DNA from: a virus
Length of the DNA: 23,013 nucleotides
Virus record (IMG/VR): IMGVR_UViG_3300006920_000264
Span: 1-23,013 of that record
Strand: one strand, 5' to 3'
In this document: positions 13-20,933 of the stretch, piece by piece
How the letters are laid out: each line of letters begins with the position of its first letter
How positions within the stretch are numbered: the first letter of the stretch is position 1
Translations under genes and position numbers: made by a program
Notes under the pieces: generated by a model
What the model saw: the letters and a program-made list of their open reading frames with translations, nothing else
Database searches by the model: none
What the model was told of the DNA's origin: nothing

Positions 13-225
13 ATGAATAATTTCGATTTAAAAAAATACTTAGATGAAGGTAAGCTATTAAAAGAAGAAGGAAAAACCTTAGTTTATATAGTTGTTGAAG
101 ATGGTGATAACAATCAACATGTGTTGAGTGATATGAAAGTATTTTCCAACAGGAATGATGCTGATGATTATGCCGATAGTTTCAAGTATGGTGGAATGAT
201 GGTATTCCAGAGTGAAGTAATATAA
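13..225 (+). CDS. Small putative virion cargo protein 1 with capsid-targeting-like N-terminus
   Basis: Encodes 70 residues. Residues 1-19 read MNNFDLKKYLDEGKLLKEE, almost identical to the N-termini of the next three genes, while the rest is unrelated to them. The shared segment resembles the capsid-targeting sequence of T4 internal proteins (MKTYQEFIAE, cut after I-A-E) and holds two L-x-E sites, L10-D-E12 and L16-K-E18. The inferred role is a small protein packaged into the prohead and trimmed by the prohead protease. The mature part is about 50 residues, acidic, with a beta-rich start (TLVYIVVEDG) and no recognised domain. The ATG directly follows TAAAA pentamer repeats, as in the following genes, which supports this start. 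The next gene begins 11 bases downstream. The mature function is unknown. Confidence 0.8.
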   Translation: MNNFDLKKYLDEGKLLKEEGKTLVYIVVEDGDNNQHVLSDMKVFSNRNDADDYADSFKYGGMMVFQSEVI

Positions 226-237
226 AATAAAATAAAA
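223..237 (+). repeat. TAAAA pentamer repeat (3 units) bridging stop and start
   Basis: Three tandem TAAAA units form the whole gap. The first contains the TAA stop of the upstream gene, and the last A begins the next ATG. It probably serves as an A-rich translation-initiation region in place of a Shine-Dalgarno site. Confidence 0.85.
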
Positions 238-581
238 TGGAAAATTTCGATTTAAGAAAATATTTAGCAGAAGGTAAGCTATTAAAAGAAGAAATGAAAG
301 CACCTAGTGGCTGGACTGAAATCAAAGACTTATCAGACCTACATTATAGCGAAGAAGATGGCGAAATAGCTGTTAAAGCATGGGATGCACCAATGGAAGG
401 GTGGGATGAAGAACATAAAGACATGATCATAATAAGAAAAGATGATGATGGATTTTATTTAGATGGGTATGTATCTTTTGGTGATTTTGAAATGCAAGGT
501 CCATTTAACACATATGAAGAAGTGCTTAAATTAGCTGTTGAAGAAATGGAAGCCTTTAAAGAAGATTGGGACGAACAATAA
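237..581 (+). CDS. Small putative virion cargo protein 2 with capsid-targeting-like N-terminus
   Basis: Encodes 114 residues. It starts MENFDLRKYLAEGKLLKEE, with L-A-E at 10-12 and L-K-E at 16-18 as candidate prohead-protease sites. After this leader the protein is strongly acidic and Trp-containing (W at 26, 49, 56 and 111 approximately), with alternating strands and a C-terminal helix (region TYEEVLKLAVEEMEAFKEDW). I recognise no family. The shared leader and position suggest it is packaged with the genome like T4 internal proteins; this is inference. It lies 11 bases after gene 1 and 26 bases before gene 3, so all are probably on one transcript. The start is supported by the leader shared with its neighbours. 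Confidence 0.8.
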   Translation: MENFDLRKYLAEGKLLKEEMKAPSGWTEIKDLSDLHYSEEDGEIAVKAWDAPMEGWDEEHKDMIIIRKDDDGFYLDGYVSFGDFEMQGPFNTYEEVLKLAVEEMEAFKEDWDEQ

Positions 582-608
582 AATAAAATAAAATAAAATA
601 AAATAAAA
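579..608 (+). repeat. TAAAA pentamer repeat (6 units)
   Basis: Six perfect TAAAA units run from the stop codon of the upstream gene into the ATG of the next. This is the longest copy of the pentamer array in the window and looks like a product of slipped-strand expansion. Shorter versions precede other starts, including that of the tail-tube gene. Confidence 0.9.
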
Positions 609-1195
609 TGGACAATTTCGATTTAAAAAAATATTTAGCTGAAGGTAAGCTATTAAAAGAAGAAGTATCTTCAAGGTTTATAAAAAAATACCTTTCTATG
701 GTTGAACCTGAGAATTTTAAAGATATTGAAGATATAGAATCATATAGTGATAGAGATAAAGCTATATTTTTATACTTAGAAATAGGCCCAGGTATCATGG
801 TAAGCGATGAGTTAGCAAGGGATCTTAAAGACAAGCCAAGTGAAGAAATAGTCCAATATTTTAAAGATAGAAATTATAGTTATATGCCTTATAGTGCGAT
901 GGATAGAATATTTGGTTCTATAACCCCTACTGGAATGGAATTTGAAAGAGGATCCCCAGAAAAAGTACATCTAGATGCTTATGGACATAATAGAAAAATT
1001 AATAAAATCTTAAGAGACAAATACCCAGATGTTATTGATTTTATGAAAAGTGATAGAACAGGAGGTAATGCAATAGAAGTTCATAATGCTATCCAAGATA
1101 GATATAGTGATGAAGCAAAAGACGGAAGAAGCAGAGAAGTAAGTTATGAAGAATACGCTTCAGATTTTGCTGATGCTATGAGGGGCAGAATGTAA
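608..1195 (+). CDS. Putative virion cargo protein 3 with capsid-targeting-like N-terminus
   Basis: Encodes 195 residues beginning MDNFDLKKYLAEGKLLKEE, the same leader as its neighbours, with L-x-E sites ending at residues 12 and 18. The remaining about 175 residues are mainly helical and charged, with no membrane segment and no catalytic motif that I can name. A central part (around GSITPTGMEF and KVHLDAYGHN) looks like a compact globular domain. The leader is nearly identical at the DNA level to those of the other three genes, but the downstream sequence is not. The inferred role is an internal, possibly injected virion protein. Function after entry is unknown; counter-defence is one possibility by analogy with T4 IPI. 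It ends 21 bases before gene 4. Confidence 0.8.
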   Translation: MDNFDLKKYLAEGKLLKEEVSSRFIKKYLSMVEPENFKDIEDIESYSDRDKAIFLYLEIGPGIMVSDELARDLKDKPSEEIVQYFKDRNYSYMPYSAMDRIFGSITPTGMEFERGSPEKVHLDAYGHNRKINKILRDKYPDVIDFMKSDRTGGNAIEVHNAIQDRYSDEAKDGRSREVSYEEYASDFADAMRGRM

Positions 1196-1216
1196 TTAAA
1201 ATAAAATATAAATAAA

Positions 1217-1969
1217 ATGGATAATTTCGATTTAAAAAAGTACTTAGCTGAAGGTAAGCTATTAAAAGAAAATGAAAACCAACTAGTAATAGATGGAGAT
1301 TTTATTAAGAGAAAACATAACCCATTCTTACCACAAGAATTCTTTGGGGGTGGGGACCAACAACAAATGCTTCATATGTTTAGCCAAAACGCTATCCTAT
1401 ATGATATAACAGGAGAATTATTACCTTACCTTGAAGAATTTGGAGGTTATAGATCTAGCTACAATGGTGCGGATGTAATTAAATTTCCTCTAGATAATCC
1501 AAGAATCACATTATTAAACCCTGCACAAAAGTTTTTAAAACCTGGTGAAAAGTACAAATCATTCAATTCTTTTGATGATTTAGAAACACTAGACAGATAT
1601 TCAGATGAAGGTAGTTCATTAAAAGAAGAACAAGGAGAGAATGATAACATAGTGTCATTTCTAAATGCTAATATTGAAGATGTAAAACAACACATGCGTG
1701 ATGAATTTTTTGATGATGATGAAGATGAGGCAGAGTACAATGAAGAAATGGGTGAAGAAATTGATAGTGTAACATCATTCGAAGGTGCAGATAATGATGA
1801 TGATTTAGCTGGAGCTGTACCTAACCAAGAAATAGGTATATCTTACATGCTTAAAGATGATTATGATGCTTTGGAAGACAAAACTAGATTTGAAACTGAT
1901 AATGGTTTTCCTCCTGCAGATGTAAAAATAGCAGGTAAAGATTTAAAATTCATTACTTATAGTATTTAA
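1217..1969 (+). CDS. Putative virion cargo protein 4, capsid-targeting-like N-terminus plus internal relic copy
   Basis: Encodes 250 residues starting MDNFDLKKYLAEGKLLKEN, with L-x-E sites at 10-12 and 16-18. A second, decayed copy of the leader lies inside the protein at residues 119-139 (FDDLETLDRYSDEGSSLKEE). There the second site (L135-K-E137) is retained and the first is lost (S129). The gene therefore looks like a fusion of two cargo genes: residues 20-118 as one mature unit and 140-250 as another. The second unit has a very acidic stretch (residues about 160-200, with DDDEDE). No known domain was recognised. This is the last gene of the cassette, followed by a 244-base non-coding region with a terminator. 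Confidence 0.78.
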   Translation: MDNFDLKKYLAEGKLLKENENQLVIDGDFIKRKHNPFLPQEFFGGGDQQQMLHMFSQNAILYDITGELLPYLEEFGGYRSSYNGADVIKFPLDNPRITLLNPAQKFLKPGEKYKSFNSFDDLETLDRYSDEGSSLKEEQGENDNIVSFLNANIEDVKQHMRDEFFDDDEDEAEYNEEMGEEIDSVTSFEGADNDDDLAGAVPNQEIGISYMLKDDYDALEDKTRFETDNGFPPADVKIAGKDLKFITYSI

Positions 1970-2213: not shown

Positions 2214-3404
2214 ATGGATAGAGACTTTTTTAAAGGTGCTATCGCTGAAGCAAAAACAGTAAGAGAATCAGCAATAGCCAATGCAAAAGCAGCTTTAGAG
2301 GAAGCATTCGAACCAAAAATGAGATCTATGCTAGCTACCAAGCTAGAGGAGATGGAAATGGATGACGAAGATGCAACTAATGAAGTAGAAGAAGAGAACT
2401 ACAAAAATGAAGGAAAAGGAGAAGTTGAAGAACTTGACCTTGACGAAATTTTAGCAGAACTCGAAAATGAATTATCAGAAGAAAATTCTGAAGAAATGTT
2501 GAAAGAAGAAGAAGAAGTAGAAATGGAAACTGAAGAAGACGAAATGGATTCTGAAGAAGAAGTAGAAATGGATTCGGATGATGAAGATATCGATCTTGAA
2601 GACATGACTGAAGATGAATTGAAGAAATTTATTGAAGACGTTATTGAAGATATGGTTCAAGCTGGAGAGCTAGAAGCAGGAGATAGCGCAGAAGAAGAAA
2701 TGGAAGACGAAATGGAAGATGATATGGAATCTGAAGAAGATGAAGTAGAAATTGAAATGGAAGACGATATGGAATCTAAAGAAGAAGTAAACGAGTTTAT
2801 GGGTATTGGTAAATCTAAAAAAGTAGCTGAGGAGTTTGCATCTGCAAATCCAGAATTAATACAGGCTGCTAAAGGTAAAGACCAATCATCAGATGAATTC
2901 AAAACTCTTGTTCTTAAGTTTAATAGCTACCTAAGAAAAGAAGGAATATCTTCAAGTTACAGAGGTAACTATATGGATAAACTTTATGATATGGTAGGAG
3001 TAGATCGTAAGGGTAAATTGGCACCAATGGCTAGTACAATGGAAAACGAAGATTTATCTGAAGCAGTTGAAACAATTAATACTTTAAGATCAGAATTGAA
3101 CGAAATCAACTTATTGAATTCTAAACTTCTTTACACAAACAAAATCTTTAAAGCTAAAAACTTAACTGAATCTCAAAAGGTAAAAGTGTTGAACGCATTT
3201 GACAATGCTAATACAACTAAAGAAGCTAAATTGGTATTTGAAACATTAAACAATAGTTTAACAAAATCAAAAACTATAGTAAAAGAATCTCGTATGGGAT
3301 CTGCTTCTAAGTCAATTAGTAAAGTTAATACAACAACAAAACAACCAATTGTAGAGTCAAATGAGATGGTGAAAAGATTTCAAAAACTCGCAGGAATAAA
3401 ATAA
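2214..3404 (+). CDS. gp22: Prohead core scaffolding protein, T4 gp22-like
   Basis: Encodes 396 residues, longer than T4 gp22 (about 269). The N-terminus MDRDFFKGAIAEAKT has I10-A-E12, the same spacing as the protease site in the upstream cargo proteins and close to the T4 capsid-targeting/scaffold N-termini. Residues about 45-190 are extremely Glu/Asp-rich and internally repetitive. Residues about 195-270 (from FMGIGKSKK) form a non-acidic inserted segment. The C-terminal part has a coiled coil and the stretch KNLTESQKVKVLNAF, which matches the DLTESQKEKVSAL stretch of T4 gp22, and it ends RFQKLAGIK. In T4-like phages this protein forms the prohead core and is degraded by the prohead protease. 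It lies 33 bases upstream of the major capsid gene, as in T4. Confidence 0.85.
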   Translation: MDRDFFKGAIAEAKTVRESAIANAKAALEEAFEPKMRSMLATKLEEMEMDDEDATNEVEEENYKNEGKGEVEELDLDEILAELENELSEENSEEMLKEEEEVEMETEEDEMDSEEEVEMDSDDEDIDLEDMTEDELKKFIEDVIEDMVQAGELEAGDSAEEEMEDEMEDDMESEEDEVEIEMEDDMESKEEVNEFMGIGKSKKVAEEFASANPELIQAAKGKDQSSDEFKTLVLKFNSYLRKEGISSSYRGNYMDKLYDMVGVDRKGKLAPMASTMENEDLSEAVETINTLRSELNEINLLNSKLLYTNKIFKAKNLTESQKVKVLNAFDNANTTKEAKLVFETLNNSLTKSKTIVKESRMGSASKSISKVNTTTKQPIVESNEMVKRFQKLAGIK

Positions 3405-3437: not shown

Positions 3438-5006
3438 ATGTCACAACTAAATTCACTTTTAGAAAGTGCTAACCCTCACAAATCACTACAAAGTGATGCA
3501 GTAAGGTTAGCCAACAAATGGGGAAAGACAGGATTGTTAGAAGGAATCTCAAATGAGACTGACAAGAACAATATGTCTATGATCCTAGAAAACCAAGCTA
3601 AGCAATTGGTAACTGAAACTTCTGCAACAGGAGGAACAGCAAACTTTACAGCAGGAACAGGAGAAACTTGGGCTGGTGTAGCTTTACCATTGGTAAGAAA
3701 AGTATTCGGACAAATCGCAGCAAAAGAATTTGTTTCGGTTCAACCAATGAACTTACCTTCAGGTCTAGTATTTTATTTGGATTTCCAATATGGTACTACA
3801 AAAGCTCCATTCGCAGCTACAGACTCAATGTACGGAACACCTTCAGCAAACTTTGGAAACGAAGCAGCAGGTGGTGCTTACGGTGCTGGAAGATTCGGAT
3901 ATTCTATCTTGAACGCAACTGGAACTGGAACAGTAACTACTAGTTCAGCAGACTTCTTTACAGATTTTAACGCAAACTCTACTTATTCTGCATCTGCAGC
4001 AGCTGGGGATTATAGTGTATACTCAGTACCAACTTCATCAATGGATTCATTTGATGCTGAAGGTGTAAGAGCATTTACATTATCATCTGCATCAGTAGCA
4101 TTCGGACAACTTCCAGAATTTACTAAATTGAATGGTGGAAACATCGAATTCGTTGCTGCCAAAGATAAAGTAGTTTCAGGAACATCAGTAGCAACAGTTA
4201 CTTATTCAAAACAACCAGCTGATAACACAAGAGGTGATTTCGAAAATAGCACAGCTATTCCAGAAATTAACGTTGAAATGTCAAGTGAAGCTATCGTAGC
4301 GAAAACTAGAAAACTGAAAGCTGTATGGACTCCAGAATTTTCTCAAGATTTAAATGCATACCATTCATTAGATGCTGAAGCTGAATTAACTTCAGTAATG
4401 AGTGAGTACATTTCTTTAGAAATTGACTTGGAAATCTTAGATATGTTAATTGATTCTGCAGCAGCAGGAACTGAATACTGGTCAGCAGTAAACAACACTT
4501 CTATAACAACTGCAGGATACGGATCTGATTTAGGATTCTTCAACACTCAAGGACAGTGGTTCCAAACTTTAGGAACTAAAATGCAGAAATTGAGTAACAT
4601 TATTCACCAAAGAACATTAAGAGGTGGTGCAAACTTCCTAGTATGTTCTCCAACTGTAGCTACTATTTTGGAATCAATTCCAGGATTTGCTGCTAATACA
4701 GATGGTGATGCTGCTAAAATGAGCTACGCATTTGGAGTTCAGAAAGCAGGTACAATGAATTCAAGATACACGGTGTACAAAAACCCGTATATGACTGAAA
4801 ACACTATCTTAATGGGATACAGAGGAGGACAATTCTTGGAAGCAGGTGCAGTATTTGCTCCATACATTCCATTAATCATGACTCCAATGGTTTACGACCC
4901 AGAAACTTTCGTACCTAGAAAAGGATTACTTACTAGATATGCTAAGAAAGTGGTTCGCCCGGAGTTTTATGGTAAAATTTATGTTGAAGGTTTGAACAGC
5001 CTATAA
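3438..5006 (+). CDS. gp23: Major capsid protein, T4 gp23-like
   Basis: Encodes 522 residues, matching T4 gp23 (521). The N-terminal prodomain contains LANKWGKTGLLEGI and MILENQAKQ, echoing LLNKWKPLLEG and IFENQEKDF of T4. A likely maturation site is V58-T-E60, followed by TSATGG, comparable to T4's L-T-E cut before AEIGG; the mature protein would be about 462 residues. VQPMNLPSGLVF corresponds to the T4 segment VQPMNSPTGQVF. The C-terminal part (residues about 270-522) carries the conserved HK97-fold region, ending VRPEFYGKIYVEGLNSL. It follows the scaffold gene directly and is followed by a strong terminator, consistent with a high-expression unit. The start is preceded by an A-rich leader without a Shine-Dalgarno site. 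Confidence 0.95.
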   Translation: MSQLNSLLESANPHKSLQSDAVRLANKWGKTGLLEGISNETDKNNMSMILENQAKQLVTETSATGGTANFTAGTGETWAGVALPLVRKVFGQIAAKEFVSVQPMNLPSGLVFYLDFQYGTTKAPFAATDSMYGTPSANFGNEAAGGAYGAGRFGYSILNATGTGTVTTSSADFFTDFNANSTYSASAAAGDYSVYSVPTSSMDSFDAEGVRAFTLSSASVAFGQLPEFTKLNGGNIEFVAAKDKVVSGTSVATVTYSKQPADNTRGDFENSTAIPEINVEMSSEAIVAKTRKLKAVWTPEFSQDLNAYHSLDAEAELTSVMSEYISLEIDLEILDMLIDSAAAGTEYWSAVNNTSITTAGYGSDLGFFNTQGQWFQTLGTKMQKLSNIIHQRTLRGGANFLVCSPTVATILESIPGFAANTDGDAAKMSYAFGVQKAGTMNSRYTVYKNPYMTENTILMGYRGGQFLEAGAVFAPYIPLIMTPMVYDPETFVPRKGLLTRYAKKVVRPEFYGKIYVEGLNSL

Positions 5007-5036
5007 TATAAGTTAACACATATATAACTTAATGAG

Positions 5037-5065
5037 AAGGGGATGCATTTTTGCATCCCTTTTTT
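5037..5065 (+). terminator. Rho-independent terminator after the major capsid gene
   Basis: GGGATGCA (5040-5047), a TTTT loop and TGCATCCC (5052-5059) form a perfect 8-bp stem, followed by a run of T. A weaker inverted repeat, AAGTTA/TAACTT (5010-5030), lies just upstream. An open frame from 5032 runs through this hairpin, so that upstream start is unlikely to be used. Confidence 0.9.
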
Positions 5066-5097
5066 ATATGTATAACGGACCCGAAAATTCTGGACTT

Positions 5098-5682
5098 ATG
5101 AAAATGTGTAAAATGTGTAAAATAGAGAAAAATTTAGATGAATTTTATAATAAATCAACAACTAAAGATGGTAAACATATCTATTGTAGTACCTGTATGA
5201 AGGACGAAAAGAAAAAATATTACAAACGTACAAAACACGACAGAGCAGATTACTATGCATCCTACCGTGAAAAAAACAAAGAATATTTCAACCAATACTC
5301 TAACAACCACTACCACACCAACAAGGAATTATATAGGGAATGGAATAGAAATAAATACACTACAGACCCACATTTCAGAACTAAACATATAACCTCATCA
5401 AGGATACATGAGGCCCTAAAAACATACCAAGTATTAAAAACCGAAAGAACGATTGAATATTTGGGCTGTTCTATAAGTGAGTATTGTGGCTATTTAGAAT
5501 CGAAGTTTGACGATAAGATGAACTGGAATAACCAGGGAACATATTGGCACATTGACCACATCATACCTGTTTCTTCATTCGATTTTAACAACGAAGATGA
5601 GCTATACAAATGTTTCCACTATACAAATACTCAACCTATGGAAGCCCTTGAAAATAGGATTAAAAGTGATAAAATGATTTAA
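5098..5682 (+). CDS. HNH endonuclease with N-terminal zinc finger, probable free-standing homing enzyme
   Basis: About 194 residues from the preferred ATG at 5098, which gives the typical start MKMCKMCK. In-frame ATGs at 5032 and 5068 also exist, but the first would translate through the capsid-gene terminator. C4-x2-C7 and C30-x2-C33 form a zinc finger around DGKHIYC. The middle is basic and Tyr-rich (KKYYKRTKHDRADYYASYREK), suiting DNA binding. The HNH core is WHIDHIIPVSSF (H151, D153, H154), followed by CFHYTNTQPMEALENRIKSDK. Such enzymes cut double-stranded DNA and often promote their own spread. It sits between the capsid gene and phoH with a terminator in front, consistent with a mobile insertion. 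Its promoter is not obvious. Confidence 0.85.
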   Translation: MKMCKMCKIEKNLDEFYNKSTTKDGKHIYCSTCMKDEKKKYYKRTKHDRADYYASYREKNKEYFNQYSNNHYHTNKELYREWNRNKYTTDPHFRTKHITSSRIHEALKTYQVLKTERTIEYLGCSISEYCGYLESKFDDKMNWNNQGTYWHIDHIIPVSSFDFNNEDELYKCFHYTNTQPMEALENRIKSDKMI

Positions 5683-17741: not shown

Positions 17742-20700
17742 ATGGCATTATTAGGAAAAAGCTTCAGCGATTATGTTGACAAACAGGTAAAAATTCGCCA
17801 AAAATCTTTGGGTGGTCCTTCATTGACCTCAAAAACACTTAAAGTTTACAATAGTCAATCCCCTTGGATTAGACTAGCCAGTTCAGTAGATATAACAGCC
17901 GGAGATACATCTCTCCCAGGTAAATCTGTTTTGGAACAGGTTAAAGATTTATTTGATGGTTTTGAATATGTTGGAGATAAATTAGCAAAAAACTTTGTTC
18001 TGTTTGGTGGTGTTAATACTGAAAAAGGGGGGGTTGAAAACATGCCAACTGGAATTAATAAAACTCCCCTAAAATCAGCTTATGGTTTTGGTTATAAGGA
18101 TTTAAATAGAGATAATAGTAGGGGATATGTTCCTATGCCTGGTATAGAAAGTGTAGATTTTTCATATAAAAATGATGGAGCTTTAGCTCAAGCCTCAATC
18201 CAAATAAAATGTTTTTCTCCTGAACAATTCCAAATGGTAGATATTCTATTCCAAAGACCAGGATATACTGTACTTTTAGAATTTGGCCACTCAGTATTTA
18301 AAGATAATGAGGGGAAAGTGCAATACGCAGGCCAGGGGGATTATAGCTATGAAACAGAACCATTCTCAAATCTATATAACCCTAAAGAAAAACAAGGATT
18401 TTATAATTTATTAGATTTAATACAGGTTGAAAAAGAAAAATGGGATGGTAATTACGAAGCATTTTATGCTAAAATAACTAAATTTAATTGGAAATTTAAT
18501 AGTGATGGTAGTTATAATATCACAGTAAATTTAATAGGTTTAGGGGATGTGATTAGTTCACTAAAGATGGATGTTACCCCACCTAAAATACCAATCCAGG
18601 GTGATGACAATTTATTAAACTCAGATACCCTTTCAATAAAGAATTCATTAAAAGTCTTCAACCAAGAAGATAACCCATTTATACCTACTACTAGAAAAGA
18701 TCTCCAACTAAACACAGGAATAACTGGAACATTTAGAAGTAGTTTTGTGGAAGATGGAAGGAATGGGTTTGTATACTACGTAAAATTAAGAGATAATGGG
18801 GTTGGGGCTGATGTTTTTAAAATAGATAAAAAAGATTATATAAAAAATACCTTTACCCTTAGTGAAAGTCCAACAATTCAAAACTCTCTAACTTCTGCAT
18901 TTACCTATGAATTACGTAGGATTAAAGAAGAAATGAAAGAAAAAATAAAACAGAAAACAACCCAAGACGATACTATTTCCTCCTACACCTCACCCACACC
19001 TTATCCTTATACTGTAGGGAATACAATCTCTAAAGATTATAATGTTACAATCCCTAAAGGAGTACTAGGTATCATTACAGGTAATAAAGAACATGACCCA
19101 GGAACTTATATAAGTTTTGGTGTCTTATTATCTATTATTCAACAATATTGCAATCAATATTCTAAGGGTATACCAATCCTCCAATTTGACTTTAACTTTA
19201 CTAATATGAAGGAGGACAACAACTATATTAAAAAATACTCTGGTCTTTTTTCTTCTGACCCAACTAAGGTTTTAGTACCTTATAAACAACTCCCAATTAA
19301 TATTATAGGCGATTCAAAACCCTTAATAAAACCATCCACAAACAAAAATAAAGGAATATCATTTAATGATCCTTCTATTCTAGAATCTTCCCCATTCTTA
19401 GTTAGTGGTGATACTAATAAAGGTAGATTAGCTTATGTTTTTCTACACACTGATTACCTATCAACAAAATTTGTTGAATCTGTAGGATCAAATAACACAG
19501 GTCTTCCAATCTTAGACTTTCTAAAAGATGTTTTAAAAGATATAGATAATAATTTAAATAATCTAAATAACTTTAAAATTCTCCATAATAAAGAAACAAA
19601 CAAAATAGAAATAGTTTCTGAAACCCCCATTGGAAAAACAACTTCCAACGTAACTATAATTAATACATTTGGGGTAACAAAAACCGAAGGATCTTTTGTA
19701 AGAGATTTATCACTAGATTCAGAACTTTCAGACAATTATGCAACACAAATATCAGTAGGTGCTCAGAATAATGGGTTAAATTCACAATCTAATGGTTTGT
19801 CATTTTCAACATACAATAAAGGGTTAATTGATAGGATGATACCTGAAAAAAATGATAATGGTAGTATAAAAAACGATACCCCATCTACAGGTAGTAATCC
19901 ACCTGAACCTCAAACTTGGGGGAATATTTGGACCCCTAAAACCTTAGAAGTTTTTACATCGGTGTATGTTAACTATAATGCGGATTCTGAAACCTTATCA
20001 TCTTTAAAAAGTTTAAATTCTTCCATTTCCAATCTTGTATCAGGAGAACTAACTAAAAAAAGTTTAGCCCCACCCCCAATGTTCCTCCCATTTAATTTAA
20101 AATTAACTATGGATGGTTTAAGTGGTATGAGAATATATGATTCATTTGAGATTGATGGTAAAGTATTACCTGCGAGTTATAACCCAGAACAAATCCAACT
20201 AACCATAAAGAGTTTAAGTCATAAAGTAGATACAAATGGTTGGTCAACCCAAGTAGAAACTTTCTGCCAACCAAAATTTATATATGATCATACAAATATA
20301 AAAGTTGGAGAAGTACCATATGTCTCTATTACCGAATTAATATATGGGGAAGATCCCCCATTTTGGATGAAAACATATAAGGGAAAAACAGAACCAGGTG
20401 GGGGTGTTTTAAGAATTGCCGCAGGAGGTTACAAACTTAGTAGAATTAAAAAACAAAATATTAATGGGGTAGTCTACACTAATGGTGAAATCCCAGATAA
20501 TAAGTTAACCCAACTTCAAAATACCCAAAAATATAAAGGCTCAATTACTTCCGATGGGGGGCAAATAAGATTATTAGATTTTATAATGGTTAAACTAGAA
20601 AAAATGCTAAAAGCTTATGAAACCGACAACCCCGGAGAACAACTATACATAAACTCAGCATATCGACTCTACCAAGACCAGGTTAGAGTTAGAAAACAGT

Positions 20701-20933
20701 GGGAATCAAAAGGAAAACCCAATAACGCAGCATATCCAGGAAGATCAAATCATGGGTTTGGAAGGGCTATAGATTTTGCAAATAAAAAACTTCGAGCATT
20801 AACCCCATCTATGAAAGAATATAAATGGTTAAAAAAGAATGCTGGGAAGTACGGATTTACAAGAATTTGGTCTAAATCAGGAAAACCTGAATCTTGGGAG
20901 GCATGGCATTGGGAGCATTTAGGTAATAAATAA
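17742..20933 (+). CDS. Baseplate hub protein fused to a C-terminal VanY-like (M15) peptidase
   Basis: Encodes 1063 residues. Residues about 110-280 (RGYVPMPGIESVDFSYKN, IQIKCFSPEQFQMVDILFQR, PGYTVLLEFGHS) look like a hub domain of the gp27/protein D type. The middle is long and Asn/Ser/Lys-rich. The C-terminal about 120 residues are a D-Ala-D-Ala carboxypeptidase-type metallopeptidase: SAYR (972-975), SNHGFGRAID with H1004 and D1011, and EAWHWEH with E1053 and H1056. H1004, D1011 and H1056 should bind zinc and E1053 should be the base. T4 instead carries a lysozyme in gp5 at this place. The enzyme would cut peptide cross-links in the cell wall at entry. It follows the gp53-like gene by 2 bases. 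Confidence 0.82.
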   Translation: MALLGKSFSDYVDKQVKIRQKSLGGPSLTSKTLKVYNSQSPWIRLASSVDITAGDTSLPGKSVLEQVKDLFDGFEYVGDKLAKNFVLFGGVNTEKGGVENMPTGINKTPLKSAYGFGYKDLNRDNSRGYVPMPGIESVDFSYKNDGALAQASIQIKCFSPEQFQMVDILFQRPGYTVLLEFGHSVFKDNEGKVQYAGQGDYSYETEPFSNLYNPKEKQGFYNLLDLIQVEKEKWDGNYEAFYAKITKFNWKFNSDGSYNITVNLIGLGDVISSLKMDVTPPKIPIQGDDNLLNSDTLSIKNSLKVFNQEDNPFIPTTRKDLQLNTGITGTFRSSFVEDGRNGFVYYVKLRDNGVGADVFKIDKKDYIKNTFTLSESPTIQNSLTSAFTYELRRIKEEMKEKIKQKTTQDDTISSYTSPTPYPYTVGNTISKDYNVTIPKGVLGIITGNKEHDPGTYISFGVLLSIIQQYCNQYSKGIPILQFDFNFTNMKEDNNYIKKYSGLFSSDPTKVLVPYKQLPINIIGDSKPLIKPSTNKNKGISFNDPSILESSPFLVSGDTNKGRLAYVFLHTDYLSTKFVESVGSNNTGLPILDFLKDVLKDIDNNLNNLNNFKILHNKETNKIEIVSETPIGKTTSNVTIINTFGVTKTEGSFVRDLSLDSELSDNYATQISVGAQNNGLNSQSNGLSFSTYNKGLIDRMIPEKNDNGSIKNDTPSTGSNPPEPQTWGNIWTPKTLEVFTSVYVNYNADSETLSSLKSLNSSISNLVSGELTKKSLAPPPMFLPFNLKLTMDGLSGMRIYDSFEIDGKVLPASYNPEQIQLTIKSLSHKVDTNGWSTQVETFCQPKFIYDHTNIKVGEVPYVSITELIYGEDPPFWMKTYKGKTEPGGGVLRIAAGGYKLSRIKKQNINGVVYTNGEIPDNKLTQLQNTQKYKGSITSDGGQIRLLDFIMVKLEKMLKAYETDNPGEQLYINSAYRLYQDQVRVRKQWESKGKPNNAAYPGRSNHGFGRAIDFANKKLRALTPSMKEYKWLKKNAGKYGFTRIWSKSGKPESWEAWHWEHLGNK

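Follow-up and report, generated by a model that had tools for sequence, protein, structure and literature searches.

The internal proteins of phage T4 and the T4 protein Alt carry a short N-terminal capsid-targeting sequence (CTS), MKTYQEFIAE, which is cut by the gp21 protease after L/I-x-E. The internal proteins of the T-even phages form a highly diverse set with only the CTS in common (PMC3012670), and the CTS is regarded as a likely general route for loading proteins (PMC9026906). In a 2025 study, T4 Ip1, Ip2 and Ip3 were shown to inhibit different GmrSD enzymes (PMC12373910). Here, a leader peptide of 18 amino acid residues was analyzed that is shared by four consecutive genes in the first 2 kb of the virus record IMGVR_UViG_3300006920_000264, the whole of which (23,013 bases) is referred to as the window. 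Based on sequence comparison, the leader is, with a probability of about 0.74, a capsid-targeting propeptide of the T4 internal-protein type, which would be cut by a gp21-family protease and whose cargo would be delivered.

The four open reading frames (ORFs) are located on the plus strand at positions 13–225, 237–581, 608–1195 and 1217–1969, and they encode proteins of 70, 114, 195 and 250 amino acid residues. All four N-termini read M-x-N-F-D-L-(K/R)-K-Y-L-(A/D)-E-G-K-L-L-K-E (leaders at 13–66, 237–290, 608–661 and 1217–1270). At the DNA level, a 70-nt direct repeat composed of an A-rich upstream stretch and the leader was found at 1–70, 225–294, 596–665 and 1205–1274, with an identity of 89–94%. 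The 48-nt leader core was matched four times in the window, compared with no match in 100 dinucleotide shuffles, and it had no match elsewhere in the 23,013-base record. TAAAA arrays precede gene 2 (218–236; array detected as 218–238), gene 3 (577–607; 6.6 copies) and gene 4 (1197–1216; array detected as 1197–1218), all on the plus strand, and the A-rich start region before gene 1, also on the plus strand, is cut by the record end and retains positions 1–12. The bodies behind the leaders fall into separate clusters and show no mutual relationship. That of gene 1 is an acidic orphan; that of gene 4 is very acidic (charge −33), and a search for its relatives found none. Within gene 4, a decayed fifth copy of the 3′ half of the leader (78% identity; plus strand, 1590–1630) was found independently by a repeat finder; it reads as a decayed internal seam (...RYSDEGSSLKEE), and gene 4 probably represents two fused bodies.

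An earlier note on this DNA had described four consecutive genes with nearly identical starts and unrelated bodies, and the repeats and body clusters bear this out. The extent that it gave for the cassette (13–1276) has to be corrected, given that the cassette runs to 1969 and that 1276 lies near the end of the fourth leader. The L-x-E motifs that it placed at the ends of residues 12 and 18 are present (residues 10–12 and 16–18), as is I-A-E at residue 12 of the neighbouring scaffold protein; as an argument, the latter is weaker than it looks because gp22 homologues read I-A-E or I-A-D at this site. Base 1 of the record falls within the leader repeat, and further cassettes and the gp21 gene are probably missing upstream. 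Assemblies probably break at the nearly identical leader repeats, as at the start of this record, and the cassette counts are therefore lower bounds.

To gather related loci, IMG/VR was scanned with two degenerate DNA patterns, and the counts derived from them refer to the matches listed. The relaxed leader motif was found at no fewer than 200 places in at least 117 loci. Among the matches listed, 198 of 200 lie 2–4 residues after a methionine; the remaining two, in L064 and L095, are each the second leader within a fused protein. A search with the 23-nt DNA of the leader end alone recovered N-terminal leaders, internal seams and one match without recognisable leader or seam context (L156). 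In total, at least 219 distinct leader proteins were obtained, with 104 segment families, of which 69 are singletons. The earlier note had named host chromosomes, away from phage genes, as a place where the leader should not occur, and the strict leader pattern was found in none of approximately 85,000 bacterial and archaeal genomes.

Judged by gp23, two cultured phages come nearest: Flavobacterium phage immuto, with an identity of 59%, and Microcystis phage Mel-JY01, with 57%. The leader is a family trait of uncultured T4-like phages of Flavobacterium-type bacteria that are related to immuto. Mel-JY01 (PP395634.1, L038) has a capsid protein 57% identical to the Flavobacterium-type group. In immuto, relatives of the leader are found on genes 3, 179, 194 and 195, and a divergent one is found on gene 202, between the gp21 protease and gp22. 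When the 20-residue leader was searched against cultured phages by tblastn, no match was obtained, yet the degenerate DNA pattern detected the leader in immuto; a blank from short-peptide BLAST is thus not a negative result.

In strand, the leader genes agreed with the adjacent marker genes without exception (711 vs 0). The site seen most often is upstream of the terminase gene, at a distance of a few kb; the other sites are the gp21–gp22 interval (as in the window), the gp20–gp21 interval, the vicinity of polA/ssb, the position following dnaB, and the tail genes. In L116, a gp21-family protease (PF03420, Peptidase_S77, 6.8e-31) lies directly upstream of the leader gene, with gp23 also flanking, and the same order was seen in other relatives. 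The expectation that the leader always sits beside gp22/gp23 was rejected in view of the terminase-upstream, replication and tail sites. Of what the earlier note had expected from such a search, the N-terminal position and the variable C-terminal parts were recovered and the confinement to gp22/gp23 was not. Its overall interpretation holds in part: modularity and the predicted signatures of packaging and proteolysis stand, and exclusive siting at gp22/gp23 falls. The gene 2 protein is 94% identical in L169, where it lies upstream of the terminase region, and in L170. The occurrence of the same body at different genomic sites indicates that the leader serves in trans as a tag on proteins, with no tie to a single operon.

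Few copies of the protease motif are expected in bodies that survive the prohead, and many in scaffold proteins. Across 144 non-redundant body segments, [LI]xE occurred 138 times compared with 245.5 times in shuffles (ratio 0.57, bootstrap 95% confidence interval 0.47–0.66). The related motif [LI]xD was enriched (1.24), as was the mirror motif E-x-[LI] (1.23; 302 vs 245), and the [LI]xE ratio was 1.17 in control ORFs and 0.98 in acidic control ORFs. The depletion was observed in every genomic site class (0.37–0.69), with a ratio of 0.43 away from head genes. For the four bodies of the window, 2 motifs were found vs 7.3 expected (p 0.014), and one of the 2 lies in the decayed seam. The same test was applied to T4-type proteins: the bodies of 14 T-even internal proteins contained 2 motifs vs 10.4 expected, and the core proteins 67, 68 and 22 contained 24 vs 10.3. 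The two signatures thus recur in T4 internal and core proteins, which calibrates the test.

These ratios bear on the alternative that the leader genes encode accessory core or scaffold proteins, which would be led into the prohead by the leader, would there share the fate of T4 gp67, gp68 and most of gp22 (degradation by the protease, then expulsion) and would never be delivered. The bodies are indeed acidic like gp22, and some cassettes are found between gp21 and gp22. However, many protease sites are expected of a prohead core protein, and [LI]xE was enriched 1.5-fold in seven gp22-like proteins and 1.76-fold in five proteins at the gp68 position, whereas the bodies are depleted, which is the same split as that between the T4 internal and core proteins. 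Fast-turnover orphan bodies are also unlike a structural scaffold, and this alternative is judged improbable. The leader might also address proteins to a place other than the prohead (the membrane, a host protease or adaptor, or the tail), as the cassettes adjoining replication or tail genes could suggest. Such an address seems very improbable, as the motif is avoided in every site class, non-head sites included, the seams and leaders match the prohead protease rule L/I-x-E, and the leader, with a net charge of 0, is without signal-peptide character.

Within the leader, the L-x-E at residues 10–12 was built into the search pattern, and residues 16–18 were left unconstrained by the second pattern. 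A second L-x-E was found in 143 of 148 leaders, at residues 15–17 (e.g., KLHEE, RLFEE) or 16–18 (KLLKE), compared with a background of 6.7% after L/I in the bodies. The retention of the motif despite the change of register argues for selection on L-x-E. By eye, similar strings were read near the N-terminus of gp21 homologues (LISEGKMS, LLEGKLS) and in gp23 (TGLLEG, ILENQ). Codon use in the leader depends on position: K14 is encoded by AAG in 53/99 cases vs 7/277, and L15 by CTA in 74/150 vs 16/300. The binomial p-values for the codon and seam counts treat related sequences as independent and are indicative only. These position-dependent lysine and leucine codons indicate that the leader DNA is shared by descent and not by convergence. 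Homogenisation of leaders within a genome was small (synonymous identity 0.775 vs 0.743; reached by 18 of 1000 permutations), too small for ongoing gene conversion to be claimed.

A second, interchangeable leader family, MKEL(N/Y)xFRQ(F/Y)LTEGK(I/L), was observed in L055, L166–L168 and L053, in the same role as the FDLKKYLAEGKL leader (referred to as the FDL leader).

Exchange between leaders and bodies was observed in both directions. The body of gene 3 is 86% identical in L166–L168, where it stands under the leader MKEL(Y/N)RFRQFLTEGxIVKE, and agreement at the DNA level resumes at the E-G codons. Conversely, positions 577–664 of the window (start region and leader) are 98.9% identical to L170, in which they precede an unrelated body. 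In L055, two bodies (NRPHPTEVF and AINLDIEDD) stand under the MKEL leader, and their relatives in L075, L006, L063 and L074 stand under the FDL leader. In L081, a DUF5872 body stands under the FDL leader; it has another N-terminus in immuto gene 187. Taken together with the fusions described below, the same body under different leaders and the same leader DNA before unrelated bodies strongly support modularity at the sequence level, as the earlier note had proposed for a leader with interchangeable bodies.

Fused chains were found among the leader proteins, in 20 of 219 of which between one and four internal seams with the pattern x-x-E-(G/N)-(K/R)-L-..-E were counted, although a few pattern-matched seams may be due to chance (L102, L143). 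L108 holds a chain of five bodies (436 amino acid residues), and the chain in L168 is built with the MKEL leader. At least 12 body families were found both behind an N-terminal leader and behind an internal seam. Three residues before the cut, 22 of 25 seams have L, I, V, M or F (background 25%). In seams whose P3-P2 residues are not the L-A of the leader, [LIVMF]-x-E was still present in 12 of 15, which argues that a protease-like motif is kept where the upstream residues derive from the body. One tentative extension, to which slightly less than an even chance is given, is that the L-x-E end serves as a universal joint: unequal recombination would build cargo polyproteins of two to five bodies, which would be cut by the prohead protease in the capsid into several injected proteins, so that the repertoire would evolve by swapping and concatenating modules and the bodies would be obliged to avoid L/I-x-E.

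The repeat could be a translation-start and recombination module alone, with a peptide that has no role in targeting or cleavage. The conserved DNA takes in the A-rich start region, the positional codon bias reflects descent of the DNA itself, and tandem cassettes are spaced by approximately 11 nt, all of which suit such a module. But the peptide end is unchanged in the MKEL leader, whose DNA shows hardly any similarity to that of the FDL leader ahead of L-x-E-G. Moreover, the second L-x-E persists in either of two registers, hydrophobic-x-E survives in internal seams with body-derived residues, and the bodies avoid the motif; a role of the DNA alone is therefore scarcely credible.

The bodies are small (median 115 amino acid residues) and very acidic, with a median pI of 4.3 (neighbouring ORFs, 6.1) and a net negative charge in 92%. 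Ocr and ArdA act by DNA mimicry, and as a speculation, the acidity of the bodies might fit mimicry of this kind. When 134 leader proteins were searched in Pfam, NCBIfam, PADLOC and PHROGs, the sole convincing domain was DUF5872 (E 4.7e-7), and almost all bodies are orphans. Matches to Tad5, REase and others (E 1e-4 to 1e-2) were at about the level of chance for 134 queries and were not used. No credible peptidase domain was found among the 134 proteins scanned, with one weak match to Peptidase_S41 (E 0.007). Structure predictions were weak (gene 3, pLDDT 66; gene 2, pLDDT 51), and the predicted structure of gene 3 gave no fold match.

These results leave some room for packaged proteins of another kind, namely head-internal structural, DNA-organising or ejection proteins without action on the host. 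A recognisable effector domain was found in no body, and many packaged phage proteins are structural or ejection-related, such as the crAss001 cargo (PMC10172136). On the other side, the extreme turnover of the bodies, most of whose segment families are singletons, suits an arms race better than a structural role, and T4 Ip1–3, the best-studied analogues, each inhibit a different GmrSD enzyme (PMC12373910). A non-effector cargo is considered unlikely.

According to the preferred reading, that of a capsid-targeting propeptide, translation would begin at the A-rich start, and the leader would dock on the gp22 scaffold core and thereby bring each protein into the prohead. A gp21-family protease would then cleave behind residue 12 (L-A-E), behind residue 17 or 18 (the second L-x-E) or at both places, and the same protease could split fused chains at their L-x-E seams. 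The mature body would remain in the head among the DNA and, by analogy with T4, be injected, after which host defences or metabolism could be its target. Together with the A-rich translation start, the leader DNA would form a reusable module that recombination places before new bodies; recombination would also swap the leader type and sometimes join from two to five bodies into a single reading frame, separated by L-x-E seams. As predictions, packaging and prohead proteolysis are well supported by the retained L-x-E, the avoidance of the motif in the bodies and the T4 positive control. We infer prohead entry, cleavage, injection and an effector function from these patterns. Several observations weigh against this reading. 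The gp21 gene is absent from the window, because the record begins inside the cassette. Leader genes are found near replication genes (after dnaB, beside polA/ssb) and not near head genes alone. The five leader-like proteins of immuto show no clear, significant avoidance of the motif (8 vs 10.8). The bodies are acidic, whereas the T4 internal proteins are mostly basic (PMC9026906), and given that the domain matches of the bodies are near chance, the word effector rests on analogy.

Compared with T4 IPI, IPII, IPIII and Alt, the leader proteins are alike in having a short N-terminal propeptide ending in aromatic-[LI]-x-E on otherwise unrelated small bodies, in the avoidance of [LI]xE by these bodies and in a gp21-family protease in the head cluster. 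They differ in that the leader shares only the end [YF]-[LI]-[AT]-E with MKTYQEFIAE and is otherwise not recognisably homologous to it, in the presence of two L-x-E sites and at least two interchangeable leader types, and in the fused multi-body chains. They also differ in the pI of the bodies (mostly 9.2–9.8 in the T-even proteins) and in the spread of their genes over several places in the genome, including the gp21–gp22 interval of the head operon, where T4 has none. The leader system thus appears to work like the T4 internal proteins, in a more elaborate form; it is not counted as a member, given that its leader agrees with the T4 CTS in the [YF]-[LI]-[AT]-E end only. In phage P1, an N-terminal signal likewise sends the anti-restriction protein DarB/Dar into the head, but the Dar proteins are large, have no common N-terminal sequence and belong to a different capsid lineage (PMC9024508). 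Several head proteins of the phiKZ-like phage SPN3US have N-terminal propeptides removed by the prohead protease at x-E (A-x-E), but these exceed 100 amino acid residues and are not one short leader on exchangeable bodies (PMC7411985). Polyvalent proteins also combine several domains per chain, are predicted to be packaged and delivered, and have been compared with viral polyproteins; they often carry their own peptidase domain, whereas the joints here are propeptide-derived seams that are probably cut by the prohead protease (PMC5512222). The Bacteroidetes phage crAss001 has protein cargo in its head too, but its cargo proteins are large and conserved, and no shared leader has been reported (PMC10172136). 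The earlier note had known of no description for this phage type, and the open-access literature yielded none of the leader system in this group, of exchangeable leader types, of acidic cargo, of seam-joined chains or of the avoidance test. The general principle of diverse internal proteins sharing a CTS was already known (PMC3012670, PMC9026906, PMC12373910), and the novelty lies in the leader itself, in the group of phages concerned, in the acidity of the cargo and in its fusion into chains.

Downstream of the cassette, the window contains genes for a gp22-like scaffold, gp23, PhoH, neck, sheath and tube. A terminator-like hairpin follows the cassette on the plus strand (2053–2072), its count being at the level of chance (1 found, 1.3 expected). 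The gp22-like acidic scaffold (2214–3404, plus strand) was assigned by position and composition and ends in ...RFQKLAGIK, and the major capsid protein gp23 follows at 3438–5006 on the plus strand (PF07068, E 3e-76). The C-terminal motif (R)(M/W/F)QKLAGI of gp22, which ends at 3404 in the window, was also observed on non-scaffold proteins, at L027 3358–3720, L031 5993–6148 and L032 921–1913 (leader strand as plus) and in immuto gene 188; possibly it constitutes an independent address for the capsid or the core. A further N-terminal tag, MK(K/I/R)SxLxxxIKEEI..(L)LSE, recurs on proteins encoded upstream of the terminase gene and at other places (L008 2715–3020, L032 5171–5455, L064 3892–4710 and L084 2292–2636, with the leader strand turned to plus; immuto genes 176, 177, 191 and 199). 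Between gp23 and PhoH, the window has an endonuclease VII/HNH-like gene (5032–5682; phrog_1035, 1e-20), which is not at that place in immuto and is possibly a homing endonuclease. The large tail protein at 17742–20933 has a C-terminus that, judged by eye, resembles a D-Ala-D-Ala carboxypeptidase (M15) domain. Immuto itself (MW353175.1, 18–37 kb; L139, genes 28–69) carries a 7-deazaguanine DNA modification set (DpdA, QueC/D/E and FolE as annotated), so that not only packaged proteins but also modification of its DNA may protect it from restriction.

With the proposed system, the internal-protein concept of T4 would reach beyond the enterobacterial phages from which it is known, into a large aquatic group of uncultured phages, and about a hundred candidate packaged protein families without known relatives become available. 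Metagenomes can be searched for such cargo by means of the leader and its MKEL alternative. Avoidance of the protease motif is a sequence-only test for proteins that are packaged and survive maturation, apparently new and calibrated on T4. Direct testing is feasible because Flavobacterium phage immuto is cultured and has five such genes. The route by which phages acquire new cargo would become visible in the interchangeable leaders and the fused chains.

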